DNA from: Pseudomonadota bacterium
GTDB lineage: Bacteria > Bdellovibrionota_B > Oligoflexia > Oligoflexales > CAIYRB01
Length of the DNA stretch: 34,792 nt
NCBI GenBank assembly: GCA_026390435.1
Contig: JAPLFY010000033.1
Span: 1-34,792 of the forward strand
Direction of reading: 5' to 3'
Made by a program: the position numbers and the translations under genes. Numbering within the stretch: the first letter of the stretch is position 1; the number at the start of each line of letters is the position of its first letter. Below are positions 1-34,792 of the stretch, in pieces. The notes beneath the pieces were generated by a model. That model did no database searches. It was not told the origin of the DNA and saw only the letters and a program-made list of their open reading frames with translations.

Positions 1-1
1 C

Positions 2-478
2 GGCAACGTCGGCATCGGCTCAAGTGCCCCTACAGCTGCTCTCGACGTTAACGGCACGATCAAAGGCAACACGCCTGCCGTCGCTGCCTACTCCGAGACG
101 GGCCAAACGACCACGACACGCAACGCATGGGTCACCTCGACAGCCGTGCAGGTGACGGTGCCGGTTACGGGCAAATATTTGGTGCAGGCTAGCGCGCGCG
201 CGTACGTCATCGGGGCTGCGGACAATTGGTGGAAGGCCCGGGTCTATAACCAGACCCAAGGCACGCAAGCGTGCGTCTTCCTTGGATTCGGATACGCGAG
301 TACGGGAGGCTTCAGCAAAGGCGATGGCACCGCCAGTCAGACGACCATCGCGTCGTTTAACGCGGGGGATGTTGTCGTCCTTCAGTTCTCAATAAATGGC
401 AGCGATACCGGCTCGGTCTATCTCGTCGGTGACGGCAACGGCGGCTCCAGTTTATCGCTTGTCCGGGTCAGTAACTGA
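2..478 (+). CDS. Fibre/adhesin-like protein, C-terminal part (C1q-like tip)
   Basis: The reading frame is open from the left edge, so the gene starts outside the window; 158 residues are visible. It begins in a shaft motif (GNVGIGSSAPTAALDVNG), the repeat typical of phage tail-fibre-like and S74-type bacterial surface proteins. A roughly 120-residue beta-rich tip follows, containing VTVPVTGKYLVQASARAYV and ending SLSLVRVSN. The pattern of a 'VPVTGKYLVQ' strand and a final hydrophobic strand resembles C1q/TNF-like jelly rolls. The role is probably binding of a surface or host ligand (inference). Just after the stop lies a scrap of a different, S74-type tail, so this tip appears to have replaced an older one. 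Confidence 0.75.
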   Translation, partial: GNVGIGSSAPTAALDVNGTIKGNTPAVAAYSETGQTTTTRNAWVTSTAVQVTVPVTGKYLVQASARAYVIGAADNWWKARVYNQTQGTQACVFLGFGYASTGGFSKGDGTASQTTIASFNAGDVVVLQFSINGSDTGSVYLVGDGNGGSSLSLVRVSN

Positions 479-503
479 AGACGGGCGCTCGCGATCCCCA
501 GTG

Positions 504-650
504 CCAGAGGTGGTGACAACCGGCTCCGATGGTGTCAAACGGGTGAAATACACCGACCTGATTCCCTGGTCATTGAAGCGATGCAAGAGCAAAATGCCGA
601 GCTCCAGCTCATCAAGTCAGAGAACCAGCAATTAAAGGCTGATGCCGCCA
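504..650 (+). pseudogene. Remnant of a peptidase S74 (endosialidase chaperone) tail
   Basis: Beginning 26 bp after the preceding stop, one frame reads PEVVTTGSDGVKRVKYTDLIP, the usual end of an S74 intramolecular chaperone domain. At 564-569 the frame breaks. Reading on one base shifted gives VIEAMQEQNAELQLIKSE and then NQQLKADAA, the coiled-coil that normally ends these proteins. A single lost C in the CCC run at 564-566 (CCCCTG to CCCTG) restores one continuous frame with P-L-V-I-E. There is no start codon and the catalytic part is missing. The 3' end runs into the end of the minus-strand antitoxin gene at 651. Family assignment rests on the SDG.KRVKY..LIP pattern. Confidence 0.7.
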
Positions 651-938
651 TCAGGCCTGTTTACGTGCCATTTTTGCTAGAAAATGTTGGTCGACTTCAC
701 GTTGGACGAATAACTTGATCACTGCCTGCCGGCTCACATTCAACTCGGCCGCGATTTGGTCAAGCTCCGTCAACGTAACATTGCCAAAGTCAACATTGAC
801 CCGTTGCACTTGTTCGGATTTTGATGGCATCATCCGTCCACGCGTGAAGTGGGCATTCACATCCTCCCCTCTGAGGGCGCGCTCCTCAATCTCTTCAATG
901 CTTACCTTAGCGACCCTTTGCTTCTTAGGCTTTTTCAT
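651..938 (-). CDS. BrnA-like (ribbon-helix-helix) antitoxin
   Basis: The 95-residue protein has a basic N-terminus (MKKPKKQRVAKVS). Its C-terminal half has the short beta-strand and two-helix pattern of a ribbon-helix-helix DNA-binding domain (QRVNVDFGNVTLTELDQIAA, then ELNVSRQAVIKLFVQRE). It follows and overlaps by 14 bp a BrnT-like toxin gene on the same strand, the usual brnT-brnA order. In that family the antitoxin neutralises the toxin and represses the shared promoter. The stop codon abuts the S74 tail remnant on the other strand. Assignment to BrnA rather than another CopG-type family comes mainly from the partner. Confidence 0.7.
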   Translation of the reverse strand: MKKPKKQRVAKVSIEEIEERALRGEDVNAHFTRGRMMPSKSEQVQRVNVDFGNVTLTELDQIAAELNVSRQAVIKLFVQREVDQHFLAKMARKQA

Positions 939-1200
939 AGAGTCTCCGTTCTGCCTTGGTCGACCGCCAATAAGTCACCAGGTGATAGTACTCGCCCTTA
1001 TCGTCTTCACGATGCTCAAAAATTAAAGTTACCAATTGAGCGTTTACAAATCCTATCGCCCTATATTGTTCGGGGTCGTCATTTTTCTGATCCAGGAAAT
1101 AGGGTCGGTTAAAGATCTGAGTGACGACTTCAAATCCCATTCCTCGCTGAGAATCGTCTCTCAGCTTTCGATCTTTGGCTATATCCCAGCGATATCTCAT
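925..1200 (-). CDS. brnT: BrnT-like toxin
   Basis: The 91-residue protein has the BrnT/DUF497 layout: an N-terminal strand with aromatic and Asp residues (RYRWDIAKDRKL), a central strand-rich part, and a C-terminal S-T-K-A-E-R-R-L-Y-E motif very like the family's ARKA.R.ERR.YE ending. BrnT toxins are RelE-fold ribonucleases that inhibit translation. The ATG at 1200 is preceded on the minus strand by an A-run with no Shine-Dalgarno sequence and, only about 10 bp upstream, a TATTAT box inside a palindrome, so the mRNA leader may be very short. It overlaps the antitoxin by 14 bp, suggesting translational coupling. Confidence 0.75.
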   Translation of the reverse strand: MRYRWDIAKDRKLRDDSQRGMGFEVVTQIFNRPYFLDQKNDDPEQYRAIGFVNAQLVTLIFEHREDDKGEYYHLVTYWRSTKAERRLYEKA

Positions 1201-1213
1201 TTTTTTATGGTAT

Positions 1214-1228
1214 AATAGTTATACTATT
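1214..1228. promoter_or_regulatory. Palindrome upstream of minus-strand brnT, probable operator
   Basis: AATAGT-TAT-ACTATT is a perfect inverted repeat with 6-bp arms and a 3-bp centre, 14 bp upstream of the brnT start codon. It overlaps the A/T-rich TATAAC/TATTAT stretch that would serve as the -10 region on the minus strand. The position fits autoregulation by the ribbon-helix-helix antitoxin (inference). Confidence 0.5.
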
Positions 1229-1407
1229 TTGGCAAGAGCAGCTCCCCTGCCAGACACAAACAGTGGCGGCTCTACTTGTTCTTATCCACGTTTAAGACGG
1301 CTGTCCAAGGTAAGCGACAGTATGTCAAATGGAGCCGCGTGATTGACACGCTCCCTTTGCAAGGAGGCCTGGTACCTCAGGTATTAACAGTGGATCCGGC
1401 ACTGTGA
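1219..1407 (+). pseudogene. Headless open frame, unrecognised
   Basis: Sixty-two codons are open between a TAG at 1216 and the TGA at 1405-1407, with no ATG or GTG start in frame. The translation includes QWRLYLFLSTFKTAVQ and VKWSRVIDTLPLQGGLVPQ, which look like genuine protein sequence rather than noise. I do not recognise the family. Its stop overlaps the GTG of the next frame in a GTGA junction, the arrangement of translationally coupled genes. The likeliest reading is the 3' end of an older gene cut off when the neighbouring TA module arrived. Confidence 0.25.
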
Positions 1408-1623: not shown

Positions 1624-1914
1624 ATGGCTAAAGTCATTGAATTTAACTGGGACCAGTGGAACAGGCAAAAAAATGAAATAAAGCACGGAGTGTCATCCTT
1701 AGAAGCTGAAAGTGCCTTTTTCGATTCAAACTACAGGCTTTTTCGGGACGTGAAGCACTCTACATCTAAGGAAGAGCGATTGATTCTATACGCGCGCAGT
1801 AGTGAAAATCGAGTTCTAATGATCGGCTTTACTATCCGAAGTGGTTTGGTTCGCATTATCACTGCTCGAGCGGCATCCAAGAAAGAGAGAGCTGTTTATG
1901 AAAAAGAAAACTAA
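1624..1914 (+). CDS. brnT: BrnT-like toxin
   Basis: The 96-residue protein is a standard BrnT/DUF497 toxin. It starts EFNWDQWNRQKNEIKHGVS, matching the family's F.WD..K...N..KHGVS N-terminus. The middle carries R-D-V-K-H-S and the end reads ITARAASKKERAVYEKEN, the conserved R.A...ER..YE motif. It is closer to the family consensus than the minus-strand copy at 925-1200, so the two are distant paralogues rather than a recent duplication. The ATG has a weak ribosome site (GGGGAT). The 3' end overlaps the antitoxin by 17 bp. Confidence 0.85.
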   Translation: MAKVIEFNWDQWNRQKNEIKHGVSSLEAESAFFDSNYRLFRDVKHSTSKEERLILYARSSENRVLMIGFTIRSGLVRIITARAASKKERAVYEKEN

Positions 1915-2179
1915 GAAGGCGACTGTAATCAGTGACTACGACGAAAATGACACAACTTCGATGATTGACAGCAGAAGGCCAATAAGCTTCGAAGATTTGG
2001 GATTGAAGCTCCCTGAAGTCCCCCCAACGCAAGTCATCTCGATTCGTTTACCAACAGCTCTTTTGAATGAGATAAGAGCCCTTGGATCCCGAGATGACGT
2101 ACCTTATCAAGCTCTGATTAAGATTTTCTTGACCGAGGCTGTACAGCAAAAGAAAACCAAACCAAAGCGCTCAGCTTGA
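1898..2179 (+). CDS. brnA: BrnA-like (CopG-type) antitoxin
   Basis: The frame is open from 1841, but the ATG at 1898 (MKKKTKKATVISDYDEND) is the likely start because it gives the normal short overlap with the toxin stop and a typical Lys-rich antitoxin N-terminus; 93 residues result. A flexible acidic middle precedes a C-terminal ribbon-helix-helix motif (TQVISIRLPTALLNEIRALG and YQALIKIFLTEAV). It should neutralise the upstream toxin and bind the operator at 1578-1596. Thirteen bases after its stop an open fibre frame without a start codon begins. Confidence 0.8.
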   Translation: MKKKTKKATVISDYDENDTTSMIDSRRPISFEDLGLKLPEVPPTQVISIRLPTALLNEIRALGSRDDVPYQALIKIFLTEAVQQKKTKPKRSA

Positions 2180-2192: not shown

Positions 2193-2849
2193 AAAAAGCG
2201 CCTACCTCGGTTTCGGACCGTCAACGTCGGTATCGGCACTACTGCTCCTGTCAATAAACTCACCGTCAGCGGTTCAGCTAATTTCACAGGCAACGTCGGG
2301 ATCGGCACTACAACGCCTGGGAACAAGCTGACTGTCACCGGAAAAATCGAGTCCACTGTTGGAGGTATCGTCTTACCAGATGCTACAACGCAGACGACCG
2401 TCGCCGGATCGGCTTACGCGACAGTATTTCGCAAGTCGAGTCTATCCTTCGCTTTCGCTTCAACCTGGTACAATGTGCCCCTCGATAATGAGTCATATAA
2501 AGTAAACATCACTCATAGCAACACAACAAACCCAGAGCGTGTAACTGTAAATGCTACCGGACTTTATCAGATTTCCTATTCAGCAATACATCTGGGCGGT
2601 GCCGGGACAGGATATACCCGCTTAGTAGTCAATGGCACGACAGAGATGCCAGGAAGTTACGTCATCGGGGCGGTGAGCGCAGCGAGCTATTCCGTTAGCA
2701 CGTCAACTACTGTTGTTATTCCGCTCAGTCAAAACGACTTTGTGACATTACAGGGAGCAACTACCGCTACCACTTACATTAGTAATTATGCTGGCCCCAC
2801 AGCGACGAATGCATCGACTGCAGTTATGACTGTCGTGAGGTTAAATTAA
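2193..2849 (+). pseudogene. Orphan fibre C-terminus, no start codon (C1q-like tip)
   Basis: The frame is open from just after a TAA at 2190-2192 to the TAA at 2847-2849, but it has no plausible start or ribosome site. A GTG at 2475 lies inside the domain and is not a convincing start. The first residues are not fibre-like. From 2220 the text is two shaft repeats (VNVGIGTTAPVNKLTVSG and GNVGIGTTTPGNKLTVTG), then LPDATTQTTVAG. A ~140-residue tip follows with the C1q-like features VTVNATGLYQISYS and STAVMTVVRLN. It differs from the tip at 2-478. It is best read as a displaced, silent tip cassette or gene remnant, separated from any N-terminal part by the TA module. Confidence 0.7.
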
Positions 2850-2863
2850 GCTTTAGCTCTTCT

Positions 2864-2970
2864 TGGGATCACGCACTGCTAGCAACTCATTGACACCATT
2901 AGAACACCACAAAACATGACTACAAAAGATATCGGGCTTTCAGCAGCTTAGCGCCAGTGCCTGACCCCCT
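2864..2970 (-). repeat. Dispersed ~110-bp repeat, copy D (inverted)
   Basis: This is a diverged copy, in the opposite orientation, of the 111-bp element at 31573, 32530 and 33611. It shares the block CAACTCATTGACACCATTAG, the ACAAAAGAT segment and the end AGCGCCAGTGCCTGACCCCC. It begins 15 bp after the stop of the orphan fibre tip. Confidence 0.8.
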
Positions 2971-3079
2971 GCACAAAACCTGTGGTAACATGAACAAAAC
3001 ACGCAAAATTTAGTTCGGCGAATCGCCTATCCCCCCAGACCTCAATTTAGCAATAACATAAAAAACGCAGAGGATTACC

Positions 3080-4702
3080 ATGAGACAAGGGGCCTTGTGC
3101 TCGCTAGCGGTAGTTGTCCTAGCCGTCGGCGCATGCAAAACGACTAAGCAAACGGGTGCGTCAAGTACAACTGAAGCTAGTGGTGTGGAGAATCCTTATT
3201 GCCGCTCACTTGGACTACCGACACGTCCATTCATCAACGCCCCAGAAAGTGCAAAGCTTGGCACCGTTGCCGCAGACTTCCAACTGCTGACGACGCAGGG
3301 GTCCTTTCAGTTATCGAGCGCCTTCACTGGCTGTGATAACTATCTGATCGTGCAAGATATCCCGCGGCAAACTCGGGAATTTAAACAGCCTATTTGGTTG
3401 CGAGATGGAGCAGCCTTACTGAAGGCGCTGCCTAAGAACACGCACGTGTTTTTTGTCTCTGTTGGCAACGATCAAAATCTAATACAGATGTCTCTCCAGT
3501 CGATTACCGACAACGTCGAAGATGCTCTAAAAGCTATGCCCGCTGCTGACGCCGACTTTTGGCGCTCCCACCTTCACTATGTCACGGTGCCAGTTGCTGA
3601 GATCAAGGGGTGGCTAGGCGAGGCTATGGTCAGTCCAGGGTGGGGGATTGGCATCGACCGCTTCCAAAAGATTCGCTACGTCGGCAATTACAGCGACCCG
3701 CATCGCTACGAAGCTAGCTTAGATGATTTTGGTCCAAACCTGGCCATGCTTGCTAACGAACCCATTTACTATAATTTTGAGGCAAAACGCGAAGCCACTC
3801 TCGCAGCGGAAAAGGCGACCATCGTTCCCATTTTTCAAGGCCAACCTGTAATCGAGCAAAAAGACAAAATTTTCTCCGAAGTTGAGCTTCCGGATGCTGC
3901 AACCATGGCTAAATTTGATGGCCTAGAGCTCGATATGACGGCTGAATGTAAAGGCGACGGTGAAGTTGGTGAATGTCCAGCTTGGGATGAGGCACTGGTC
4001 TTTTATCTTTGCGACCTAAATAAACCGGACTCTTGCACCACGGAAATTGGTCGCTGGATTTCCACCTATCACCGCATCGGACGCTGGGTGCATGATATCA
4101 GCCCCTTTCTTCCCTTGCTAAAGGACGGTGGCAAACGTCAGTTTGCCATTAAGGTTGGTCAACCTTACGAGTTGCATTTGAATATGCGTTTTCTGACTCG
4201 CAATCAACCAATCAAGCCCGTAAAAACCACTCTCTTATTTCAAGAAGGTTTTGGTGCCAACTTCGACCTAAACTATAACAAAAAGCGCCAATCCATCACG
4301 ACACTGATCCCGGCGACCGCTAAGCGCGTCGAACTCATAACTGTGATCACAGGCCACGGCATGTCGGAGCCTGGTAACTGTTCTGAGTTTTGTGACACGA
4401 CGCATCGCTTTTATATAAATGGATCCAAGATTGAGCGTAGCTTTCCAGAAACTGCGGACGACCAGAATTGCATGAAAGAAGTGGTTAACGGGACAATTCC
4501 GAACCAGTTCGGCACGTGGTGGTACGGTCGTAGTGGGTGGTGTCCGGGGCGAGAGGTGCAAATGGTGCGTCACGACGTAACCAAGTTTGCTTTGTTAGGC
4601 AAAGACAATGAGTTTCGCTACGAGGGCCTATTCCGTGGCGAACCGTATCCTGCTGTTGGCGCCGGGTTTCTCCTAACCTCGGCATTGGTCATCTACGAGT
4701 GA
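3080..4702 (+). CDS. Lipoprotein with thioredoxin-like and PNGase F-like domains
   Basis: This 540-residue protein has a lipoprotein signal (MRQGALCSLAVVVLAVGAC; Cys19), so it is probably outer-membrane anchored. Residues ~55-220 resemble a redoxin/AhpC-type fold (LGTVAADFQLLTTQGSFQLS) with no CxxC. Residues ~280-540 match peptide-N-glycosidase F, which cleaves N-glycans from asparagine. The six PNGase F disulfide cysteines have counterparts in order: CKGDGEVGEC, NCSEFC and the pair ending in GWCPG. The catalytic Asp fits the D of CPAWDEA, and Glu206 fits the E of NCSEFC. The counterpart of Glu118 is not clear because that loop is shorter, so activity is uncertain. AGAGGA precedes the ATG at a good distance. 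A terminator follows at 4720. Confidence 0.8.
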   Translation: MRQGALCSLAVVVLAVGACKTTKQTGASSTTEASGVENPYCRSLGLPTRPFINAPESAKLGTVAADFQLLTTQGSFQLSSAFTGCDNYLIVQDIPRQTREFKQPIWLRDGAALLKALPKNTHVFFVSVGNDQNLIQMSLQSITDNVEDALKAMPAADADFWRSHLHYVTVPVAEIKGWLGEAMVSPGWGIGIDRFQKIRYVGNYSDPHRYEASLDDFGPNLAMLANEPIYYNFEAKREATLAAEKATIVPIFQGQPVIEQKDKIFSEVELPDAATMAKFDGLELDMTAECKGDGEVGECPAWDEALVFYLCDLNKPDSCTTEIGRWISTYHRIGRWVHDISPFLPLLKDGGKRQFAIKVGQPYELHLNMRFLTRNQPIKPVKTTLLFQEGFGANFDLNYNKKRQSITTLIPATAKRVELITVITGHGMSEPGNCSEFCDTTHRFYINGSKIERSFPETADDQNCMKEVVNGTIPNQFGTWWYGRSGWCPGREVQMVRHDVTKFALLGKDNEFRYEGLFRGEPYPAVGAGFLLTSALVIYE

Positions 4703-4719
4703 CTTATCTTGGTCGATGA

Positions 4720-4740
4720 CCCTGCAATCCAGGGCTTTTT
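4720..4740 (+). terminator. Rho-independent terminator after the PNGase F-like gene
   Basis: Stem CCCTG/CAGGG with a 5-base loop is followed by C and five Ts. It lies 17 bp downstream of the stop codon and separates the gene from the next one. Confidence 0.7.
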
Positions 4741-4854
4741 CAGCGGAGTGAGCTGTTTCGATTACTATGTTGTGCCTAACTTTTAGTCGAAATTTTTCTA
4801 TCGCTCCGCGGCTAAGCCTCTAATTCGACAAGATCTCATCTCTGAGCACGCTTT

Positions 4855-4886
4855 GTGCAACAGGTCCTGCGTGGGTCCTGTTGCAC
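4855..4886 (+). promoter_or_regulatory. Perfect 10-bp stem-loop directly before the ribosome site
   Basis: GTGCAACAGG and CCTGTTGCAC form a perfect stem around a 12-base loop. The Shine-Dalgarno AGAGGTG begins at 4887, immediately after the stem. No U-run follows, so it is not an ordinary terminator. It could stabilise the mRNA 5' end or control access to the ribosome site (inference). Confidence 0.6.
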
Positions 4887-4896
4887 AGAGGTGAAT

Positions 4897-6444
4897 ATGT
4901 CGTTAGTTAGTGGAATTCTCCCACAGAGAATACAGAGCAGATTAAGCGCACTTGTATTTATTGGCCTTGTGTTTAGTGGCTGCAACCGCGCTCAATTTGG
5001 CGGTCAGCAATACAGGGCGGTAGATCCAAACAGCACGAGCACTCAGAATGGTAGTGGCACTCCGGCTGTTCAGTATGATCAAAATGGTGAGCCTCTGCCC
5101 TTTGGTACGCCAATTTCTCCAGCCGTGGAGCAACCGGGGTGGGTTGGTAACGAGATCAAAAATTCCGTCGATGGCTTGTTTAAGACTGGTGAAGTCCCCG
5201 CATCCACTGATCCTGGAGCCGATCCTTCAGCTCCTGGTGGCCCCGGAACTCCCGGTAATGGCAGTATACCCGGCGGCTCGGGTGCTCCCAATACAGCCCG
5301 CACTGATGGCAGATTCGGTAATGGCAGCATACCCGGCCTCGGCAACATACCCGGCCTCGGTGGTATTCCTGGTATCGGCGGTATTCCCAGAATTGGTGGC
5401 ACGAACACTCCCGGACGTACAGATGCCTCCGCTGGCGGCGGCAACATCTTAACGGATTCTGCTGGTGTCCTTTGGTTACCTTGTCGTGCTGACGGCGAAG
5501 ATGCAGGGCAGTTTCCTGCCGATTTTTATGCAAAATTAGGCTCGAGAGTGCGAGTCGCTGGAGAATTTTGTCCCAAGGCTAAAGTCAGCAGCGACGTTAC
5601 GGTGTTGTTCCTTATTGATCGCTCTGGCTCGATGGAAGGTGTGATTACTGAAGGTCCGAATGACAAAACCACTAATGGTAGCTGTGGGCGCCTTCGGGCC
5701 TCTGAGCTCCTAGTAAAAAAATACCAGACCATGGTCGGTACTAACGTGCGAGCTGGCGTGATCCGCTTTGGAACACAAGCTTCAGTCCGCTTACCAGTCG
5801 CTGGTATCGATACTGTTGCGGCTAACTTAAATGCAGATGTGTTCTGCGGCTCAGAGGCTGGTGCAGCAGGACTAACGAATTATTATGCCGCCTTCAGCAG
5901 CGCCGCTGAACAGATTGCAAGTATTCCAGGCGATAAAGTTGTGTACTTGATCTCTGATGGTTCGCCAACCGTTGGTTTGGGTGATCCGCGTCAGTCAGGT
6001 CTAGCAGCAGCACAAAGATTACGGTCAATCCCGGGTGTGAATTTATTTGCTCTCTTTGTCGGCTATAACGCTGGTAGTGCAGTCAACCCTCGCGGTTACC
6101 TTGAGCAGGTTGCCGGTGATGCTAAGTTGGTACGCGTTACAGCCAATGCCGAAGAACTAGTAAAAGCAGCGGCAACTCTAGGTACTATCCCAGTCATTAT
6201 GAAGGCCGCAGATGCCTCTGCTACTTTGGAAAACCCATCGGGCATCAGTCCACTGCGGATCGAGCGCTTTGAACCACGTCAGGACGTTGCGAACCGTTAC
6301 TACTGGATCACTGAGCCATTCATTCTGGTCGGGTCCTCAAATCCAGTGACACTCAATAAAGTCACCGTGACGGCGAAGACATCGACGGGAGAGACCCTGC
6401 AGTCGGTATCCAATATTGGCTACCATGAGTTGAAAGCGAAGTGA
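4897..6444 (+). CDS. Lipoprotein with von Willebrand factor A domain
   Basis: The start is the ATG at 4897 because AGAGGTGAAT lies just upstream; an earlier in-frame start would read through the leader hairpin. The 515-residue product has a signal ending in a lipobox-like VFSGC (Cys29). A Pro/Gly-rich linker (~100-190) carries imperfect I-P-G-L-G-G repeats at about 145-167. A vWA domain follows with a complete metal site: DRSGSM at ~241-246, a Thr in LTNYYAAF and an Asp in LISDGSPT. Such domains bind ligands through a divalent metal. A beta-rich C-terminus (~430-515) follows. It is probably exposed on the outer membrane; the ligand is unknown. Confidence 0.8.
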   Translation: MSLVSGILPQRIQSRLSALVFIGLVFSGCNRAQFGGQQYRAVDPNSTSTQNGSGTPAVQYDQNGEPLPFGTPISPAVEQPGWVGNEIKNSVDGLFKTGEVPASTDPGADPSAPGGPGTPGNGSIPGGSGAPNTARTDGRFGNGSIPGLGNIPGLGGIPGIGGIPRIGGTNTPGRTDASAGGGNILTDSAGVLWLPCRADGEDAGQFPADFYAKLGSRVRVAGEFCPKAKVSSDVTVLFLIDRSGSMEGVITEGPNDKTTNGSCGRLRASELLVKKYQTMVGTNVRAGVIRFGTQASVRLPVAGIDTVAANLNADVFCGSEAGAAGLTNYYAAFSSAAEQIASIPGDKVVYLISDGSPTVGLGDPRQSGLAAAQRLRSIPGVNLFALFVGYNAGSAVNPRGYLEQVAGDAKLVRVTANAEELVKAAATLGTIPVIMKAADASATLENPSGISPLRIERFEPRQDVANRYYWITEPFILVGSSNPVTLNKVTVTAKTSTGETLQSVSNIGYHELKAK

Positions 6445-6522
6445 AAGAGCGTTGAGATTATGCTCGCGTTGTTAGCCTGAATCAGTTCAAATGTCGGCAG
6501 AACTTCAACATTGAGGATGTTC

Positions 6523-6777
6523 ATGCCGATATTTTTGCGCCGACTTTTGTTTGCTCCGATTTCTTGCGTCGTGTTTGCTGGTATTAGCTATGCTGAACTG
6601 CCGCCGATTATGAACCCGCCGAATGCTCAGTGGTACTTGTGGAGCTGCTACGGAACATCGACGCAGAACGGCCAAAATTTGATGTGTGGCCAGGCGTATG
6701 GATACAACGATTACTGGGCGCGCCTTAATTGTGGCGGCACTTTCTCCGATATCAAATGTTGGCCTACAGGACTCTAA
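6523..6777 (+). CDS. Small secreted cysteine-containing protein
   Basis: The 84-residue product begins at the ATG at 6523, which sits 6 bases after GAGG; an ATG at 6517 touches the GAGG and a TTG at 6511 is less likely. It has a clear Sec signal (MPIFLRRLLF, hydrophobic core, then ISYA-E). The ~57-residue mature chain is rich in Trp, Tyr, Asn and Gly and holds four cysteines (WSCYG, LMCGQ, LNCGG, IKCWP), which suggests two disulfides. I do not recognise the family. It follows the vWA gene by 78 bp and may be co-transcribed. Confidence 0.55.
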   Translation: MPIFLRRLLFAPISCVVFAGISYAELPPIMNPPNAQWYLWSCYGTSTQNGQNLMCGQAYGYNDYWARLNCGGTFSDIKCWPTGL

Positions 6778-6795
6778 GCATGGCGAGTCTGAGGC

Positions 6796-27356: not shown

Positions 27357-27357
27357 T

Positions 27358-28008: not shown

Positions 28009-28026
28009 CCATAATAAAGGCTTTAG

Positions 28027-28055
28027 CTGATCTTTACTGGTTTTGGCGAGATCAG
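28027..28055. terminator. Weak hairpin between convergent genes
   Basis: CTGATCT and AGATCAG form a perfect 7-bp stem around a 15-base loop, between the stop of the plus-strand gene and the end of phoU. It overlaps the phoU stop and has no strong T-run, so a role as a shared terminator is only tentative. Confidence 0.3.
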
Positions 28056-28744
28056 TCTTGCTCAACTACTTGGCCTTTGCGCTTCTCATGGCGGATCTGG
28101 CGAGCTTGGGCTACGAACACAACGCTTTCGGCGATGTGGGAGCTGATGTCGGCAATGCTCTCTAATTTGTTGGCTATCAGCACGATTTCTAGGCCTAGTT
28201 CTACGTCGATGGTGTTGGCGCGTACCTGCTCAATCATGAGAGCCCGCGCCTGCTTTTGCAGCGTGTCGACTTCGTCATCTTGATGGGGTAGGCGCTCCGC
28301 CAGGCGGACATCCGTGCGTTGCCATGCGGAGTGTGCCAGCTCGAGTAGTTCGCGGCATTTGTACATCATCGTGGAAAGGAGCTGCCAGCCCTGCGGCAGT
28401 AAGGTTTTAAGCTTGAGACTGGCGCTGACATGCCGCGCCACATATTCAACGCAGTCACCTATGCGTTCAAGATTTCCGGCGATCTCCAGCACCATCATCA
28501 TATAGCGAAAATCAGGCCCGAGTGGCGCCCTGAGCTCCATAAAGCTGCGAGCCAGACGGTCAATCGTCAATTCGAGGGTGTCAATCTCGCGGTCGCGTTC
28601 GACAATCAGCCTTAGGCGGGCTGTGTCGTCTTGCGTCGACGCTTCCTCTAGCGACTTTAGCTGATCCAAGACATTGGTGCTTAAACGCTCCAGAAGTACC
28701 TGAATTTGATCGAATTCTTTAGCAGCTAGGTTGCGTTCTTTCAT
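28052..28744 (-). CDS. phoU: PhoU family phosphate regulator
   Basis: This 230-residue, all-helical protein has the two PhoU repeats. Each carries the metal-binding E-x-x-x-D pattern: LERIGDCVEYVARHV in the first and LESIADISSHIAESV in the second. PhoU links the Pst phosphate transporter to the PhoR/PhoB system and limits phosphate uptake. No pst or pho genes are adjacent, so it stands alone here. A clear promoter upstream could not be fixed. Confidence 0.9.
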   Translation of the reverse strand: MKERNLAAKEFDQIQVLLERLSTNVLDQLKSLEEASTQDDTARLRLIVERDREIDTLELTIDRLARSFMELRAPLGPDFRYMMMVLEIAGNLERIGDCVEYVARHVSASLKLKTLLPQGWQLLSTMMYKCRELLELAHSAWQRTDVRLAERLPHQDDEVDTLQKQARALMIEQVRANTIDVELGLEIVLIANKLESIADISSHIAESVVFVAQARQIRHEKRKGQVVEQD

Positions 28745-28952
28745 AAGGTACCCCGAGTATTTGACACTTCTAACATTACTGACAATTTAGTGCCTGTAAA
28801 GCACTTCGTTACAAGAGATTAGCAGTACACACCGTTACTGCTCTAGGCAGGCCTGGCCATCGCCAGCTATGATGGCTTGAGAGAATTATTCTGCCTTAAG
28901 CTCAAGGTTGGTAGCTTTCTTCCGACCTAAGGTACCATAGGTACACATTGCG

Positions 28953-31454
28953 ATGAATGGGCCAAGTCGTATGAGCGTTCGCCTAGTTTTCATTTCTGGT
29001 GCGATATGTGTGGGCGTTGGGGCGCCGACTCTGCATGCCTCAGCTTTACCTGATAGTTACCCTCTAAACCGGGCTACTTCAGGCCCGACTCCAGTCGATC
29101 CGGCGCTTGATGCGTGGCTGGCGGAGCACGAGATTAAGCCGTCGCCAATGGAGCTACCCGAGGACAAATTTACCGAATTTGTCGCCAAACAGGACCAAGT
29201 TACCGCTGCCTTTTTGAAGCTAGCGCGGCTGAATGCATCTGAAGTGGAAGACGAAGACGCCGATGACCCGACCGAACTGGTTGGCCCGCCAAAGTCCGCC
29301 GCTATGTCGGCAAAGCCTAAGGAAACGCCTCGCAGCATCATTGACGCAGCGCTCACTCAACTTAAAGCTGATGCTGCGAGCGGCCAGTTATCAACGCAGA
29401 ATCATCCGCTCTTGCCCTTTCTCTATCTAAATATGTTGAAATCGCCGGAGTTGGATCCGACTGCTAGGGCCGACGTGGCGCAGCGATTTGCGAAGACCGC
29501 CGCTGGCACCTGTGCCAGTAAGCAGAGTTTGTTGACTGAAGTTAATAGGGATAACTTATCGCATCTGAGTGACGACGATCTTAAAGCGCTGCTATTACGT
29601 GTGGATCGTTATCGTTCGCGGAGCTTCAAGCAGGTTGTGGTGCGTCGGATTGTGGCCAATATTGCAGACCAGAGCCAGAAGGCTATCGGTGAACAGCTGC
29701 TGGCGATGGCGCAGCCTTATCCCGCATTGATAAAGTCGACTCCTTGGCTGAGTAAACTCGCCGAGCAGACTGGTAAGGCTATTGATAATCACGAGCCCGA
29801 ATTGAGCTTCAATAAGGCGCGGCAGTTTGCCGGAAAGAAGCTGTGCGCTAAGGCTAAAGACTCGATGCTTGAGGGCTTGCGCCTGACCAAGGGCTTAGGG
29901 TCGCTGACGGATGCGACCAATACTGGCAAAGTGATCGATGGCTGCTTTCGCGCAAGTGACACTCAATTGCGGGCAGAATTCTGGCGCAACATCACCAAGG
30001 CAATGAATGACACCTATGGCTTTGACGGATGGGCCGAAGCTCGACTTCGGCTTGGTTTCATCGATTGGTCCCACAACAAATTCGATGACGCCAGAGCCGC
30101 TTTTAAAGAAGTAGCGGAGAAGGCGAGTGGCAAGTTTACGAAGTATGAAGCGAGGGCTTTGTATTCGTTGGCACGGATCGCAGAAAATGAAGGCGATCAA
30201 GAGCTTGCTGCAAACCTATATCAAGATTATTTAACTCGCTACGCTAAACAAGAAAATTACGACGAGGCATTGATGGCACTCGGCGTAATTCGTGCTAGTC
30301 GCGGCGAGTGGAGCAAGGTACTCGTGCCGCTCAAAGGTCTGATTGACAGTCAAACAGACGTTCCTGTCGACGAACGCTCCGCTTCAGTATTGTCTTTCGC
30401 TCTCTTTTGGTCGGGGCGGGCGTATTTAGAGCTAAATAAATTTAGCGAAGCCAGTGAAATGTGGCGTCGTGTCGCATCGGAATATTACTCGACTTACTAC
30501 GGTGCGCTCGGGCACTACATGCTAGAGAAAGCTATCGGCCAGCATCTAGCGTTGCAGCCAGCAAGAACACCAGCATTTCGACCGGAAATGCTACTTGAAC
30601 CCTTTTCGTCCGAAGATCAACAAAAGGTACGTCGCGTTGATGCACTGATGCGCATTGGCATGCACCAAGATGCTATTTGTGAGATGGAAGAAGTCGACAT
30701 CGCCGACGGAAAACCGGAAAAGCTGGTGATCAAAGCCCTTGTTATGCATGCATCAGGGCGTTGGCTGGATGCGGTGAAAATATATGATGTGCTGCCAAGG
30801 TCTTACCGCGGCAGTTTACCATCCGGTTTTGAGCGCATTCTTTATCCACAAAGTTATGCACAGGAAGTCAGATCTTTAGCGGCTAAGGCTGGTGTGGATC
30901 CAGATTTTGTATTCGCGATTATTCGCCAGGAAAGCGTATTTAACCCCTTAGCTCGGTCACCCGTGGGCGCTATGGGGCTCATGCAGATTATGCCCCAGAC
31001 TGCAGAATTAGAAATGCGACGCATCGGTTCCGGCTACATGCCACCAGATTTACGTCGCGAGGTTGTGCGGCGCATTTCATCGCCACTGGGGCTCCTTACT
31101 GCCGATACCAACCTCCAAATTGGAGTGCATCATGTGCGGTCGCTCCTCGAGAAGTATCTAAGCCCGATTTATGTGTTATCAGCATATAATGCTAGCCCAG
31201 CAGCAACGCAGCGATGGATCACCAACCTGCCGACCAAAGATCCTCTCGTCTTTGTAGAGCGTATTCCCTACAAAGAGACGCGTGGTTACGTGAAGCTGGT
31301 CTTGCGCAACTACTTCTACTACAAACGTTTATATAGCGATGCTAAACAGGATTTGCGTCACTTCGATGTGGTAGCTAATTCACTGATGGCGATTGTAAAG
31401 TCTGATGCGCCGGGGCGGCCAGTTGCTGGGCCACCCAAGCCTCCGAGGACTTAA
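28953..31454 (+). CDS. slt: Soluble lytic transglycosylase, Slt-type
   Basis: This 833-residue periplasmic enzyme cleaves peptidoglycan with formation of 1,6-anhydromuramic acid. A signal peptide ends around LHASA. A second in-frame ATG at 28971 starts nearer the signal core; neither ATG has a strong ribosome site. A long helical region (~60-610) with TPR-like repeats (FTKYEARALYSLARIAENEG) corresponds to the U-shaped ring of Slt70. The C-terminal SLT domain has the catalytic Glu at ~660 in IIRQESVFNP, then GAMGLMQIMPQTA and YVLSAYNASPAATQRW. At 833 residues it exceeds the ~620 of E. coli Slt70. Repeat copy A follows 119 bp after the stop. Confidence 0.88.
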   Translation: MNGPSRMSVRLVFISGAICVGVGAPTLHASALPDSYPLNRATSGPTPVDPALDAWLAEHEIKPSPMELPEDKFTEFVAKQDQVTAAFLKLARLNASEVEDEDADDPTELVGPPKSAAMSAKPKETPRSIIDAALTQLKADAASGQLSTQNHPLLPFLYLNMLKSPELDPTARADVAQRFAKTAAGTCASKQSLLTEVNRDNLSHLSDDDLKALLLRVDRYRSRSFKQVVVRRIVANIADQSQKAIGEQLLAMAQPYPALIKSTPWLSKLAEQTGKAIDNHEPELSFNKARQFAGKKLCAKAKDSMLEGLRLTKGLGSLTDATNTGKVIDGCFRASDTQLRAEFWRNITKAMNDTYGFDGWAEARLRLGFIDWSHNKFDDARAAFKEVAEKASGKFTKYEARALYSLARIAENEGDQELAANLYQDYLTRYAKQENYDEALMALGVIRASRGEWSKVLVPLKGLIDSQTDVPVDERSASVLSFALFWSGRAYLELNKFSEASEMWRRVASEYYSTYYGALGHYMLEKAIGQHLALQPARTPAFRPEMLLEPFSSEDQQKVRRVDALMRIGMHQDAICEMEEVDIADGKPEKLVIKALVMHASGRWLDAVKIYDVLPRSYRGSLPSGFERILYPQSYAQEVRSLAAKAGVDPDFVFAIIRQESVFNPLARSPVGAMGLMQIMPQTAELEMRRIGSGYMPPDLRREVVRRISSPLGLLTADTNLQIGVHHVRSLLEKYLSPIYVLSAYNASPAATQRWITNLPTKDPLVFVERIPYKETRGYVKLVLRNYFYYKRLYSDAKQDLRHFDVVANSLMAIVKSDAPGRPVAGPPKPPRT

Positions 31455-31814
31455 GAGCGAGTATATTTCGGCAATCAAGCGGCGCTACTTTTCCAACCGG
31501 AAGTGGTCGTCTGAAAGCTCATGCGCTTGCTCGTCTTGCTGGAATCTTTGCCAAATTCTCGCAACTTCTGGGAGCTAGGGGGTCAGGCACTGGCGCTAAG
31601 CTAGCGAAAGCCCTAGATCTTTTGTAGTCAGGTTTTGTGATGTTCTAATGGTGTCAATGAGTTGCCGTAAGTGCCCGACCCCATTATCTATCCATTATCG
31701 ACAGTCCCTGCGTTTGTCGTTCCCAGACATCCAAGAAAGATTTGCTGATGTCGCTTCTTTCCGATGATTTGCTGCTGTTAAGAGTCTTTCGTTGCGTAGA
31801 GTGGAGGACCCTTG
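31455..31814. other. Intergenic stretch containing repeat copy A
   Basis: Apart from the 111-bp repeat at 31573-31683 I see no gene, RNA or clear promoter here. The last bases contain the ribosome site (GGAGG at 31803-31807) of the next gene. Confidence 0.4.
31573..31683 (+). repeat. 111-bp repeat, copy A
   Basis: It runs from AGCTAGGGGGTCAGGCACTG to GTAAGTGCCCGACCCCA. The ends form imperfect terminal inverted repeats (GGGGTCRGGCACT). An inner CGCTA-AGC-TAGCG hairpin sits near the left end. It differs from copy C at about two positions and from copy B at about seven. Size, inverted ends and lack of coding capacity fit a REP-type or MITE-like non-autonomous element. Confidence 0.85.
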
Positions 31815-32156
31815 ATGCAGATACCAACACAGAAGATTGGCACAGCCCGTAGTGGCAAAGTTATAAACACGTTTACGACTGATGACTGGGAGATAGTAAA
31901 GCAGCAGATAGAGAACTACAGCTCTGAAGATCACTTTGATGCTTGGGTTATATTTGAACGATTGACAGTGCGTGAGATTCGGAGGCTTGGTGAGCATTCC
32001 ACCGATTATGCAATATTCTTAAGGTATGCGAATCTTCATCGCAAAAAAATCCCCATCAAATTCATCCAGGCTGAAAAATCACGGCTTGGGCTTACGACGT
32101 CTCCGGATCTGGTCAGGTTCGCGGCCAAGCTGACTGAAGACGTCTTCCTCGATTAG
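31815..32156 (+). CDS. Unrecognised 113-residue protein
   Basis: GGAGG lies seven bases before the ATG at 31815, good support for a real gene. The product is soluble with no signal: WEIVKQQIENYSSEDHFDAW, RLTVREIRRLGEHSTDYAIF, then a basic C-terminal part. I do not recognise a family. It lies in the ~1-kb interval between repeat copies A and B and overlaps the convergent gene on the other strand by 78 bp. Given the other TA modules nearby it could be part of a similar small system, but the sequence does not show this. Confidence 0.5.
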   Translation: MQIPTQKIGTARSGKVINTFTTDDWEIVKQQIENYSSEDHFDAWVIFERLTVREIRRLGEHSTDYAIFLRYANLHRKKIPIKFIQAEKSRLGLTTSPDLVRFAAKLTEDVFLD

Positions 32157-32480
32157 GTGATGTTTTGGATTTATCCACGGGTTGTGGGCCAAATATGGAT
32201 TTTTATCGCCTTTAGCCAGCATATAGATCTGCTGGCCTGGCACAAAACGGTTAACGTAGCAGTCGCTCGAAGTGTACGTCACGATATGGTATTCAGAGTT
32301 GCCCGCGCAAAAAGCTAATAGAGCAGGGACATCATCTTGTTGAAACATGCCAATTTGGCTGAATGGATCAAAACCTAGCCACAGTATTTCGTCGCGATCA
32401 ACGATGATACGCACCGCCTTATGGAAGACTTCGCTGTCTACCGTCAGTTCCACTCGGTTGTCGTTAGCCACTGCGCCCAT
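32079..32480 (-). CDS. Unrecognised 133-residue protein
   Basis: The ATG at 32480 has GAGGG ten bases upstream. The protein is soluble, with a strand-rich middle (DEILWLGFDPFSQIGMFQQD; EYHIVTYTSSDCYVNRFVP) and a basic end (RRRRKPKP). No family is recognised. Its size, position in an accessory interval and lack of a signal would suit an immunity or antitoxin-like protein, but this is speculation. Its last 26 codons overlap the convergent gene. Confidence 0.5.
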   Translation of the reverse strand: MGAVANDNRVELTVDSEVFHKAVRIIVDRDEILWLGFDPFSQIGMFQQDDVPALLAFCAGNSEYHIVTYTSSDCYVNRFVPGQQIYMLAKGDKNPYLAHNPWINPKHHLIEEDVFSQLGREPDQIRRRRKPKP

Positions 32481-32529: not shown

Positions 32530-32640
32530 AGCTAGGGGGTCGGGCATTGGCGCTAAGCTAACGAAAGCCCTAGATCTTTTGTTGTCATGGCTTGTGATGT
32601 GCTAATGGTGTCAATGAGTTGCCGTAAGTGCCCGACCCCA
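32530..32640 (+). repeat. 111-bp repeat, copy B
   Basis: Same orientation as copies A and C and 957 bp beyond A. Its right edge continues into AGAAGCCCTAGATCTTTTG (32641-32659), which repeats part of the element's own middle, as if it inserted into or recombined with an older partial copy. The stop codon of the fibre fragment on the minus strand lies inside this repeat. Confidence 0.85.
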
Positions 32641-32912
32641 AGAAGCCCTAGATCTTTTGGCGACACAGTGGCAGTGAAGACGGAGCGCGTGGAGTTGACA
32701 TAGTACGTGGTTGCCAAGGTTTTGTTGGCGGTAACCTGAAAGCTACCATCCGGAAACTTGATTCCGTCTGTGAGAGCCGTTCCACTAATTTCCAACTTCT
32801 GTGCCGGATTCGTCGTGCCAATCCCGACGTTGTTGCTAGAATTTATTACCACGGGAAAACCGCCAGCGCCGTTACCAATGTAGAACTGATTAGCTAAGGT
32901 TGAGTCTTTAAG
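32553..32912 (-). pseudogene. Decapitated fibre fragment ended by repeat copy B
   Basis: The minus-strand frame opens where the antitoxin gene ends (their bases overlap) and has no credible start; TTG at 32915 is preceded by no ribosome site of its own. Residues read DSTLANQFYIGNGAGG, then NNVGIGTTNPAQKLEISG and GIKFPDGSFQV, all typical of fibre shafts and tail necks in this family. After TATVS at about 32659 the frame runs into the 111-bp repeat and stops in it, so no natural tip remains. Clearly a gene remnant. Confidence 0.75.
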
Positions 32913-33225
32913 CAACCCTCAGGACCACCTTAGGATTCAATTTTTCCAAATAGCTCAACAAACGATCAACGGTAAACTTTTCGATTCGATAGTGAACGAT
33001 CTCGCTTACCCTTGTCTCCGGAATGCCAATCTTTTTAGCCAAATCCCGTTGTGAAATATCCTTCGCATGTATGAAGATGACGATCTGCCGGCACAGCTCG
33101 TACTTGGTTCGAGCCACAGCATCAGCGTCTGGTGGTAAGAGAAAGGATGCCTGGCCCTTCTTTAATTTCTTATCCATCGCGCGCATCGTCTTTTTCGATG
33201 GCATTTTTATTTTACTTCCTGACAT
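32908..33225 (-). CDS. XRE-type HTH antitoxin (HTH_37-like)
   Basis: The 105-residue protein has a Lys-rich N-terminus and a C-terminal helix-turn-helix: FIHAKDISQRDLAKKIGIPE, TRVSEIVHYRIEKFTVDRLL, ending LNPKVVLRVA. This is the pattern of XRE-family antitoxins that follow RelE/HigB-like toxins. AGGAG lies 6 bases before the ATG, and the gene overlaps the toxin by 14 bp. It probably binds the palindrome at 33529-33550. Its last codons overlap the start of the fibre fragment, so the module sits directly against interrupted fibre sequence. Confidence 0.8.
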   Translation of the reverse strand: MSGSKIKMPSKKTMRAMDKKLKKGQASFLLPPDADAVARTKYELCRQIVIFIHAKDISQRDLAKKIGIPETRVSEIVHYRIEKFTVDRLLSYLEKLNPKVVLRVA

Positions 33226-33514
33226 AAGGTCTCCTATAGCAATTGACGATCCCTAAATAGTCTCCTTGTTCTGGAAGCAGCCAGATGAGGCGGTAGGGTT
33301 TGCCTTCATAGAAATGAGGCTCGGTCGCATAGTATTCGAAACCGCCGTCCACGGCCTTAGCGGTAAATTGTATCCCGTCCAATCGATCAACGAGCGTCAT
33401 GATGATAGTGTCGGAGACCGACGATGCATGTTTCTCCTCATAATGAGGATCAATCACAATTTTTGTAATGCGCCGTTCATTAACAAATAGGTTTGCATTG
33501 TAAACGCGACGCAT
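33212..33514 (-). CDS. Probable toxin paired with the XRE antitoxin
   Basis: The start is the ATG at 33514 (CGGAGTGAA just upstream), giving 100 residues. The frame extends upstream into repeat copy C but has no ribosome site there and would read through the operator. The sequence (ITKIVIDPHYEEKHASSVSD; FEYYATEPHFYEGKPYRLIW; YLGIVNCYRRPYVRK) has the size and strand pattern of small RelE-fold-type toxins and the toxin-first gene order of higBA-like modules. I cannot assign a specific family. The toxin call rests largely on the partner and the operator. Confidence 0.6.
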   Translation of the reverse strand: MRRVYNANLFVNERRITKIVIDPHYEEKHASSVSDTIIMTLVDRLDGIQFTAKAVDGGFEYYATEPHFYEGKPYRLIWLLPEQGDYLGIVNCYRRPYVRK

Positions 33515-33528
33515 TTCACTCCGTCCTA

Positions 33529-33550
33529 TACTTACATAATAATGTAAGTA
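33529..33550. promoter_or_regulatory. Palindromic operator of the third TA module
   Basis: TACTTACAT and ATGTAAGTA are perfect 9-bp arms around a 4-base centre (AATA), 14 bp upstream of the toxin start. Position and symmetry suit autorepression by the XRE antitoxin. Confidence 0.6.
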
Positions 33551-33610
33551 GTCCATGCCGTCAACTAGTTGATCCAAGGCGAGTTTTAAGATAGTTATCC
33601 AAAGCTTAGT

Positions 33611-33721
33611 AGCTAGGGGGTCGGGCACTGGCGCTAAGCTAGCGAAAGCCCTAGATCTTGTGTAGTCAGGTTTTGTGATGTTCTAATGGTGTCAATGAGT
33701 TGCCGTAAGTGCCCGACCCCA
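33611..33721 (+). repeat. 111-bp repeat, copy C
   Basis: Same orientation as A and B, 1081 bp beyond B. It is almost identical to copy A, suggesting recent movement or gene conversion. It lies between the operator of the third TA module and a fibre scrap. The flanking AAGAAGCCCCCAAGAAGCC is a short tandem duplication. Confidence 0.85.
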
Positions 33722-33730
33722 AGAAGCCCC

Positions 33731-33844
33731 CAAGAAGCCTGGCTACCGTTCAAAAGTATCGAGCCAGTCGGCAACGCAGCAAGCTTGGAGATCGAGGTGT
33801 TTAGAAAAGAGAATCCAAAGCTATGCGAAATTATGGGCGTGTGA
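33731..33844 (+). pseudogene. Short open frame, possible gene end
   Basis: This stretch reads QEAWLPFKSIEPVGNAASLE, then IEVFRKENPKLCEIMGV and a stop. It looks like protein sequence but has no start, because the frame comes out of repeat copy C. The family is not recognised. It may be the 3' end of a gene cut by the repeat, or chance. Confidence 0.2.
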
Positions 33845-33894
33845 GTTTAGGAGTCGCCCGAAGGGCACGGAGCGAAGCGGAGGGCACGTCGGGC

Positions 33895-34018
33895 TTAGTT
33901 CAGTTCAGTACCCGTTGAATAGCCCCGAATAGCAACTGTCTGACCATCGGCTGCCCCAGATCCCACTTGCAACAAGTGACCTGGGTTAGTAGTCCCAATC
34001 CCGACGCGCCGCTGCGTA
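33895..34018 (-). pseudogene. Fibre scrap downstream of the right-hand fibre gene
   Basis: Immediately after, and in another frame from, the stop of the fibre gene at 34019, the minus strand reads APNTQRRVGIGTTNPGHLLQ, then VGSGAADGQTVAIRGYSTG and a stop at 33895-33897. This is a shaft repeat and neck of another fibre gene without start or tip. It mirrors the S74 remnant behind the left-hand fibre gene. Confidence 0.65.
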
Positions 34019-34792
34019 TTAGGGGCGGAAGCTGATATTATCAAGGCTGATCCAACCGTTGCCGCAGTTTGAGTAAGTTACAACGGACCCCTCCGGTAGT
34101 ATTTGCAAAACGCAAAAAGCACCGGTCGCTACCGTCGCGAAGTGTTTACCCAACGAGGGTCGATAACTTGCGGGCAAATAGAAGATGACCGCGCCCGCGG
34201 TGCCGCTAGCGACAAGCCCTTTTAGACGCACCACCCCTTCTTTGTCCCTATAGTAACCCGCGGTCTCCCAACTACCGCCGTAATTGGCCCAGCTATTCAC
34301 AAACGTCGGCGTGCTCCACGCATCCTGGGTAATGTTGCCGCCGACGCGTACATCACCTGCCACATCAAGGGCTGCGGCAGGGGTCGTCGTCCCTATCCCG
34401 ACGTTGCCGGCAGCATCAAGGCGCAGCCCAGAAGTCGCACCAGCCCATGGGGCAATCACAAAACCACCACCAGGGTTACCAATACTGGCGCTACCGTAAA
34501 TGAGAGCACGGTCAGCACTTTGCGTCATACTGTTGTATGCTCCGGCAGTTGCGTTACTGATTAACATCAACCAATTGCCATTGTTACTATTCAAGAAGAT
34601 GCCATCGTTGGTCGTGGTGGTTGTAATGTTCAGCTTTAACCCAGGCGCTGTAGTCCCAATGCCCGAGGTTGGGGCGACTGGCCATACTCGGCGGTAGTTG
34701 CGGTTGCGGCGCTGCTTATGACCGATGGCGGTCAGCGTGATCATTGGGCCTGTCGCCTCAAGCTGGATTGGGACGTCCCTATGGGGATTGAG
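34019..34792 (-). CDS. Fibre/adhesin-like protein, C-terminal part (phage receptor-binding-like tip)
   Basis: The minus-strand frame is open to the right edge, so the start lies outside; 257 residues are visible. Shaft repeats occur (SGIGTTAPGLKLNITTTTT; AAGNVGIGTTTPAAALDVAG). The final ~105 residues read WSTPTFVNSWANYGGSWETA, then YYRDKEGVVRLKGLVASG, IFYLPASYRPS and NGWISLDNISFRP. This matches a module seen at the ends of phage tail fibres and some bacterial proteins (Y.KD..GVV.L.G and LPA.YRP), thought to bind receptors. Residues near HKQRRNRNYRRVWP fit poorly with the shaft, and a shifted frame gives a more shaft-like ISSAATATTAEYG, so a compensated frameshift is possible. No phage structural genes are near. 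Confidence 0.72.
   Translation of the reverse strand, partial: LNPHRDVPIQLEATGPMITLTAIGHKQRRNRNYRRVWPVAPTSGIGTTAPGLKLNITTTTTNDGIFLNSNNGNWLMLISNATAGAYNSMTQSADRALIYGSASIGNPGGGFVIAPWAGATSGLRLDAAGNVGIGTTTPAAALDVAGDVRVGGNITQDAWSTPTFVNSWANYGGSWETAGYYRDKEGVVRLKGLVASGTAGAVIFYLPASYRPSLGKHFATVATGAFCVLQILPEGSVVTYSNCGNGWISLDNISFRP

Follow-up and report, generated by a model that had tools for sequence, protein, structure and literature searches.

Displaced fibre tips and toxin–antitoxin genes at probable tip-exchange loci of MAT-like bacterial fibres

In chromosomal integrons, cassettes form arrays, and toxin–antitoxin (TA) cassettes among them are thought to stabilise those arrays, and the pilE/pilS system keeps silent C-terminal variants with short common homologies on either side. 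Here we describe a window of 34,792 nucleotides, the entire contig C126 of a draft genome (G000) that comprises 153 contigs and 4.28 Mb, in which a type II secretion operon is flanked on both sides by pieces of surface fibre genes and by TA genes. The arrays share TA cassettes with integrons, but the boundary here is a coding motif, NVGIGTT, and they differ from pilE/pilS in their TA cargo and in having different tips at different loci. We read the two flanks, at a probability of about 0.7, as fibre-tip exchange loci in which insertion at the shared motif strands old tips and brings TA cargo with it.

The displacement itself resembles that of contact-dependent inhibition (CDI) and Rhs systems where, in the account of orphan ends in PMC4927057, the arrival of a new C-terminal end pushes the former one downstream with its orientation kept, giving tandem orphans, and orphan fusion through homologous recombination is proposed. 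Both cases have a long repetitive surface protein and displaced, same-orientation C-termini downstream. There, however, each C-terminus is a toxin accompanied by a cognate immunity gene, whereas here fibre heads are followed by TA modules of several unrelated families (BrnT, PemK, PIN, Gp49, DUF4258 and similar), which are not toxin-tip/immunity pairs. Displaced C-termini behind an active gene are already known, as far as that account extends, and the TA cargo accompanying fibre tips is the new part; the arrangement of tip, orphan and TA genes was not found among the titles and abstracts listed by searches of open-licence literature.

The fibres are related to the mosaic adhesive trimer (MAT) fibres of Bdellovibrio bacteriovorus, for which the main text of PMC10769870 describes S74 and non-S74 members, tips exchanged during evolution and a proposed role in prey recognition by predatory bacteria. 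The same main text contains no word beginning with toxin, and its relevant passages mention neither TA genes nor orphan tips nor a means by which tips are exchanged. TA genes and orphan tips thus set the present loci apart, and the sequence relation, the capping-loop motif, the occurrence of S74 and non-S74 members and the exchanged tips are shared. The fibre at the right end of the window matches the solved Bdellovibrio MAT structure 8ol4 (E 1.1e-5, 65 residues) and, weakly, 8ojn, 8oml and 8ond, and NVGIGTTxPxxxL agrees with the published MAT capping-loop consensus V-G-G/N-x-x-x-P-x-x-x-L (PMC10769870), so that the window fibres appear MAT-like by sequence relation. The S74 model PF13884 gave nine matches in G000, all above cut-off, and none in the window; both fibre ends in the window were without a family match, and most other tips were not checked singly for toxin domains.

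For comparison we used the window's own genome (G000), that of a sister species (G002) and further related genomes (G003 and G004); C with a number denotes a contig of G000, G2C and G4C denote contigs of G002 and G004, and L with a number an extracted stretch. MAT fibres have a conserved N-terminal domain behind a signal peptide; fibre N-termini on C46, C83, G2C181 and G4C36 are alike by eye in a comparison among these four. Named matches of the window's SLT protein are metagenome-assembled genomes (MAGs), several named after lakes and including bins labelled Oligoflexales and Pseudobacteriovorax, the closest being CAIWTN010000252.1 (Loclat_bin-10810) at 95% identity; the source, judged from these matches, is a lake MAG near Oligoflexales and apparently kin to predatory bacteria. 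The SLT proteins of G004 and G003 are 71% and 64% identical to the window's copy. No fibre motif was found in 19 SLT loci of other species, several of them short or one-sided, and the place occupied by the window was accordingly not seen as a fibre locus in those species.

The features of the window are given below; its 111-bp repeats are labelled as REPINs (doublets of repetitive extragenic palindromic, REP, sequences), since we take them to be a REPIN-like family.

2..478, + strand: C-terminal part of a MAT-like fibre gene with one NVGIG motif and tip, truncated by the contig start
479..661, + strand: frame-broken scrap, coiled-coil-like by eye, stopping at the antitoxin's stop codon; S74 label unconfirmed
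651..938, - strand: BrnA-like antitoxin (NF047399, E 1.7e-12, below cut-off)
925..1200, - strand: BrnT-like toxin, weak match (PF04365, E 1.4e-4, below cut-off)
1624..1914, + strand: BrnT toxin (PF04365, E 1.2e-19)
1898..2179, + strand: CopG-type antitoxin (CopG_antitoxin, PF12441, E 4e-9)
2220..2849, + strand: orphan fibre tip starting with the NVGIGTT motif; its stop lies 185 codons past the last motif
2857..2972, + strand: 111-bp REPIN, 7 bp past the orphan-tip stop; left limit of the G002 match
3080..31454, + strand: core block with a type II secretion operon and neighbouring genes, identified by eye from the translations
31573..31687, - strand: 111-bp REPIN, right limit of the G002 match
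31812..32156, + strand: gene of a 115-aa family, convergent and overlapping with the 133-aa gene (no match at E <= 0.1)
32079..32480, - strand: 133-aa family gene of the convergent pair (no family match)
32530..32647, - strand: 111-bp REPIN overlapping the end of an orphan tip
32553..32915, - strand: orphan fibre fragment with motif at 32831-32814, overlapping the antitoxin stop and reading into the REPIN
32908..33225, - strand: HTH_37 antitoxin-like gene (E 5e-13)
33212..33514, - strand: toxin-like partner (no family match; 39% identical to a C132 gene beside an HTH_37 gene)
33611..33728, - strand: 111-bp REPIN
33895..34008, - strand: scrap with a VGIGTTNP motif, 37 codons to its stop, past the fibre stop at 34019
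34019..34792, - strand: MAT-like fibre gene and tip (PDB 8ol4, E 1.1e-5), truncated by the contig end

An initial annotation of this DNA, made without database searches, had placed three TA modules directly against fibre fragments, and family matches (two of them below cut-off) together with the coordinates confirm this. The frame of the first orphan tip opens at 2193, 13 bp past the antitoxin stop, and runs through 10 open codons to its first motif at 2223. The annotation had also described scraps directly behind two intact fibre ends; the scraps are there, at 479-661 and 34008-33895, but the fibre genes at both window ends are truncated by the contig ends. The S74 identity it gave to the scrap near 650 was not confirmed, the sole Pfam match being SIKE (E 0.005, below cut-off) and a tblastn search against the extracted fibre loci being empty. 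Many contig ends lie in or close to fibre genes, on C36, C56, C82, C122, C126, C133, C135 and others, as would be expected if the shafts are repetitive.

The motif is where fibre homology usually begins behind cargo. A set of 24 junctions between cargo and orphan (18 in G000, 6 in G002) was assembled, omitting a TA-preceded piece on C32 with its first motif at 140077. Sequence before the motif scored as shaft-like in 73 of 76 intact contexts vs 7 of the 24 cargo junctions, and no better than random DNA at 17 of 24 cargo junctions vs 3 of 76 intact motifs. Sequence after the motif was fibre-like at all 24 cargo junctions, indicating that the fibre homology there usually starts at NVGIGTT. In chimeric fibre pairs, alike on one side and different on the other, the switch lay from -5 to +27 bp relative to the motif in 11 of 11 cases; the conserved motif draws this estimate towards its own ends, and pair selection favoured nearby breaks, so that the break is placed at the motif but not to the base. 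In a test that did not use the motif as anchor, 160 collapsed alignment ends were scored: 19 lay no more than 10 bp from a motif (3.0% in the shifted control, P 5e-7), and 16 no more than 15 bp from a REPIN (3.2% in the shifted control, P 7e-5). Of the 10 ends listed for the module formed by the 133-aa and 115-aa genes, 7 enter an intact or slightly altered motif ahead of different tips.

The layout is found well beyond the window. All 25 contigs with a strict-motif match were sampled around their matches, a relaxed motif was counted on the same stretches and on those taken for REPINs (the source of the C111 and C141 orphans), and the census covers motif-bearing tips, those without a motif escaping the count. 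With an orphan-like piece defined by fewer than 120 open codons ahead of its first motif, G000 holds 25 such pieces, 23 with a stop in the available sequence and 2 without. TA-like genes stand 15 to about 330 bp upstream of 17 of the 25, which bears out the expectation that fibre pieces would keep company with TA genes genome-wide, and the convergent 133/115-aa pair precedes two more (C122, C152). BrnT precedes orphans on C122, C126, C152 (twice), C32 and C82, MazEF on C69, Gp49 with a helix-turn-helix (HTH) gene on C71, PIN on C83, PIN/Phd on C75, DUF4258/HTH on C135, DUF4160/HTH_37 on C118, HTH_37 pairs on C126 and C132, a RelE-like/HTH pair on C111 (by eye), a ParE-like gene on C32 (below cut-off) and a matchless gene beside DUF433 on C141, the most doubtful of the 17. 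The labels of the C111 toxin, the antitoxin partners on C122 and C152 and the toxin partner on C141 were assigned by eye. A PIN/Phd pair stands ahead of a motif in G003 too (L137). Three related tip pairs, two involving an orphan, gave dN/dS (the ratio of nonsynonymous to synonymous divergence) of 0.17-0.25, in line with constraint on both tips of each pair, and with reuse.

Open reading frame (ORF) sets for family searches followed a greedy longest-ORF rule and include some shadow ORFs, one of which was exchanged for a VapB gene (set A); the small-protein sets exclude ORFs longer than about 200 aa and also one shadow ORF. Twenty random control stretches were drawn from long contigs, which are poorer in repeats; their 17 small proteins matched 10 families, none of which is a TA family. 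Across all 59 control proteins, among the matches listed (25 of 110 families), the only TA-named family was AAA_21, whose description names AbiEii and which matches three proteins, as many as ABC_tran. Around 111-bp REPINs the matches listed included BrnT (2), PemK (2), PIN (2), Gp49 (1) and DUF4258 (1), plus AbiEii and Fic. BrnT, Gp49 and PemK toxins of G000 and G002 were then scored for distance, these families having been chosen since they were already seen near fibres and several of their loci being clipped by contig ends: 15 of 29 had a fibre motif within 1.5 kb (BrnT 11 of 15, Gp49 2 of 9, PemK 2 of 5). With the strict motif, 7 of 18 G000 toxins lay that close vs 2.1% of G000 bases. The layout of tips with TA genes is not confined to the window and exceeds chance.

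Comparison with the sister species shows the core retained and the flanks replaced. The window and G002:C252 are 91-92% identical over the parts compared (window 2859-9003 and 27000-31570, the mid-core at 9004-26999 lying outside the alignment), and the match ends inside a common REPIN on the left and 3 bp from a REPIN on the right. Beyond the left limit G002 has a different tip ahead of the REPIN; beyond the right limit it has a DUF4258-type gene and neighbour, then the 133/115-aa pair, then a REPIN. Alignment of the orthologous region, recommended by the initial annotation, thus came out in favour of its reading, with the same core, other tips and other TA-like genes. A common flank with divergent continuation was also found for C111/G2C207, C71/G2C107, C3/G2C55 and C69/G2C239. 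Cassettes occur at differing loci in the two species: the MazEF and REPIN cassette of C69, which ends at the motif, has a 96% identical copy at G2C122, and the flank of C69 has its counterpart at G2C239, where a REPIN lies 28 bp away from the break. G004, with an SLT protein of 71% identity, has the DUF4160/HTH_37 unit of C118 at 93% identity across 1009 bp; the unit terminates at the motif. Separately, L077:4766-5502 of G000 and L137:667-1403 of G003, with a 211-aa gene, are 98% identical, probably a recent transfer given the SLT-protein identity of 64%.

These observations suggest the following sequence of events. The resident MAT-like fibre would be a shaft of NVGIGTTxP-bearing repeats with a variable tip, and incoming DNA of the form motif, tip, cargo, motif would recombine at one of its motifs. 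The shaft would thereby gain a new tip with its own stop, with cargo behind it, often past a REPIN; this cargo would mostly be a TA module, sometimes the convergent 133/115-aa pair or an ATPase gene. The former tip would persist behind the cargo as a shaftless orphan beginning at its NVGIGTT motif, and repeated rounds would build head-to-tail arrays of motif, tip, REPIN in some cases, and cargo. Insertion at the motif accounts both for orphans that begin there and for the observed position of the cargo, and we infer that insertion, rather than deletion or conversion, is the usual direction, with RecA probably using the motif repeats and the REPINs as short stretches of homology. The two motif copies flanking an insert would be direct repeats whose recombination would delete the new tip along with the TA pair, and the TA-like genes, as predicted from their families, may punish that reverse recombination and so lock the new tip in. 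Loci of this kind, with swap breakpoints, co-travelling cargo and leftovers, would make tip switching testable by long reads, and they offer a setting for the question of abundant chromosomal TA modules, with the TA genes in a stretch whose loss undoes the switch. A stronger, tentative and rather doubtful version is a TA-ratcheted switch, in which NVGIGTT would serve as an in-frame attachment site for cassettes of tip, stop and addiction module, of which the first would be expressed as the head and those after it would stay silent, with reversal costly and the process one-way until the next cassette; if so, the convergent 133/115-aa genes would form an addiction module of a new type.

The REPINs raise a different explanation, in which a REP-associated tyrosine transposase (RAYT) mobilises DNA between two REPINs and these are the true recombination sites. 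The window has four copies of the 111-bp repeat, one on the + and three on the - strand; in complete copies the inverted GGGGTCRGGCAC ends are spaced by about 104 bp, the repeats have outer GGGGTC stems, and the GGGGTCRGGCAC 12-mer occurs 133 times in G000 and not at all in a reversed control. Folding of three copies gave z of -2.6 to -3.2 for two (one on both strands) and 0.9 for the copy at 2858. A Y1 transposase gene (Y1_Tnp, RAYT-type; C6:17607-17948), presumably the RAYT, lies between GGGGTCAGGCAC copies at 17416(+) and 18118(-), so that the repeats are, on this assignment, ordinary REPINs, and the same genome has a RAYT gene. The inverted ends and a RAYT-type gene with the same 12-mer are as in known REPIN/RAYT systems; the difference is that this size class is tied to fibre ends and TA genes. 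A 111-bp REPIN overlaps the stop or lies within 20 bp past it in 7 of 39 stop-bearing fibre pieces of G000, and stands at the stop in 8 of 20 in G002, where loci were extracted around REPINs and counts are biased; in all 15 the REPIN is oriented as the fibre. Nine of 18 breaks between G000 and G002 fall within 30 bp of a 111-bp REPIN, and full copies are in direct orientation in 5 of 5 mapped multi-copy arrays (window right flank, C75, C111, G2C1, G2C207). All this, with the RAYT gene flanked by the same 12-mer, would suit transposase-driven cassettes, but TA-orphan junctions on C118, C122, C152 (right stretch), C32 and C82 have no intervening 111-bp REPIN, and a unit complete with both outer ends and its target junction was not observed, and we consider this route unlikely. 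REPINs of other classes also stand a few bases past ordinary gene stops (L179, L180, L193), so that the position behind stops is partly the element's own habit; with many junctions free of REPINs, this weakened the REPIN as sole boundary. The initial annotation had made the 111-bp repeats part of the arrangement, which holds for their place at the match limits but not for any specificity, as they are generic REPINs with relatives behind ordinary genes. A dedicated recombinase for which the DNA encoding NVGIGTT is the attachment site would explain why unrelated cargo joins at one place and why the Gly before the motif is retained at 21 of 24 junctions, and tyrosine-recombinase-like genes or fragments lie by fibre loci on C46 and C104; such genes are present at few loci, however, with weak matches, the cargo side of the junctions has no common sequence by eye, and homologous recombination predicts the identical position, which makes this improbable. 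An integron reading was rejected, as no integrase in G000 exceeded the cut-off (best 43.4 bits, cut-off 265) and the repeats have REP ends and no recognisable attC boxes by eye (no attC model was run).

The flanks might instead be a passive hot spot, in which TA genes, REPINs and broken fibre genes gather separately from one another and decay, without units being exchanged. Several results weigh against tip exchange, and the first and last of them also point to such a hot spot: 125 of the 160 alignment ends fall at neither motif nor REPIN, 3 of 10 pair-module ends are without a clear motif (L069, L127, L138), 6 of 25 orphan-like pieces have neither TA nor pair cargo, and 8 of the 23 with a stop have decayed-looking tips of 27-54 codons. 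Fourteen of the 29 tested toxins have no fibre motif inside 1.5 kb, so that the counter-prediction of TA modules mostly far from fibres describes about half of them, and the habit of other-class REPINs to follow ordinary stops fits independent accumulation. TA genes also occur near those REPINs (HipA_C with three members, one DUF4160 and one DUF2442, among the matches listed). The motif is moreover the most conserved part of the fibre, and short-homology recombination with no dedicated system would break there too; tip switching is here read from two fragmented MAGs, not from population data. A passive hot spot does not account, however, for junctions concentrated at one motif, for TA-like genes ahead of 17 of 25 orphan-like pieces, or for cassettes apparently younger than the species split at differing loci. 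Synonymous divergence (dS) was 0.037 for MazF and 0.079 for MazE of the C69/G2C122 cassette and 0.057 for the 133-aa gene of C152/G2C168, each low value resting on just 3 to 5 synonymous changes, vs 0.177-0.456 (median 0.241) for 16 core genes. As the loci differ between species and dS is below that of core genes, the MazEF and gene-pair cassettes probably moved after the split; the pair cassette of C104/G2C207, at dS 0.284 and 0.473, is not younger than the core genes. The exchange of units raised by the initial annotation is supported by some cassettes, which occupy different loci in the two species. Overall we regard a passive hot spot as having little chance of being correct and tip exchange at the motif as the better account; the initial interpretation is upheld in part, its view of TA modules as stabilisers being still an inference and the motif breakpoints and the recurrent convergent pair having been absent from it.

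The 133-aa and 115-aa genes are convergent, overlapping and recurrent, and occupy the same place as TA genes. For one or two copies of each, searches of Pfam, NCBIfam and PADLOC gave nothing at E <= 0.1, and their structure models had no PDB fold match at E <= 0.001, the 115-aa model being confident (predicted local distance difference test, pLDDT, 92) and the 133-aa model having a mean pLDDT of only 76.5; assignment of the pair to a known TA or defence family was rejected on these grounds. The 115-aa family is present in 8 of 56 genomes searched, G000 included, with 37 matches in G000 and 5, 16, 21, 25 and 3 in five sister species. Arrays of the pair family occur at G004:C34, G004:C126, G002:C3, G000:C6 and C139, with a tandem spacing of about 1.1 kb in G004.

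Other genes were seen beside the fibres. In G002, ATPase genes stand as cargo behind fibre stops and REPINs at L131:3967-5130, L131:554-1723 and L134:3617-4792, two of them confirmed as AAA_14/DUF4143 and L131:554-1723 recognised by eye. The tyrosine-recombinase-like genes or fragments of C46 and C104 (L065:6984-7373 and L060:3939-4460) are 94% identical over 161 bp and adjoin fibre and pair modules. On C32 (L082), three successive similar S74 ends lie at 5403-5774, 6817-7189 and 9953-10402 (97% and 88%), and a BrnT gene separates the first from the second.

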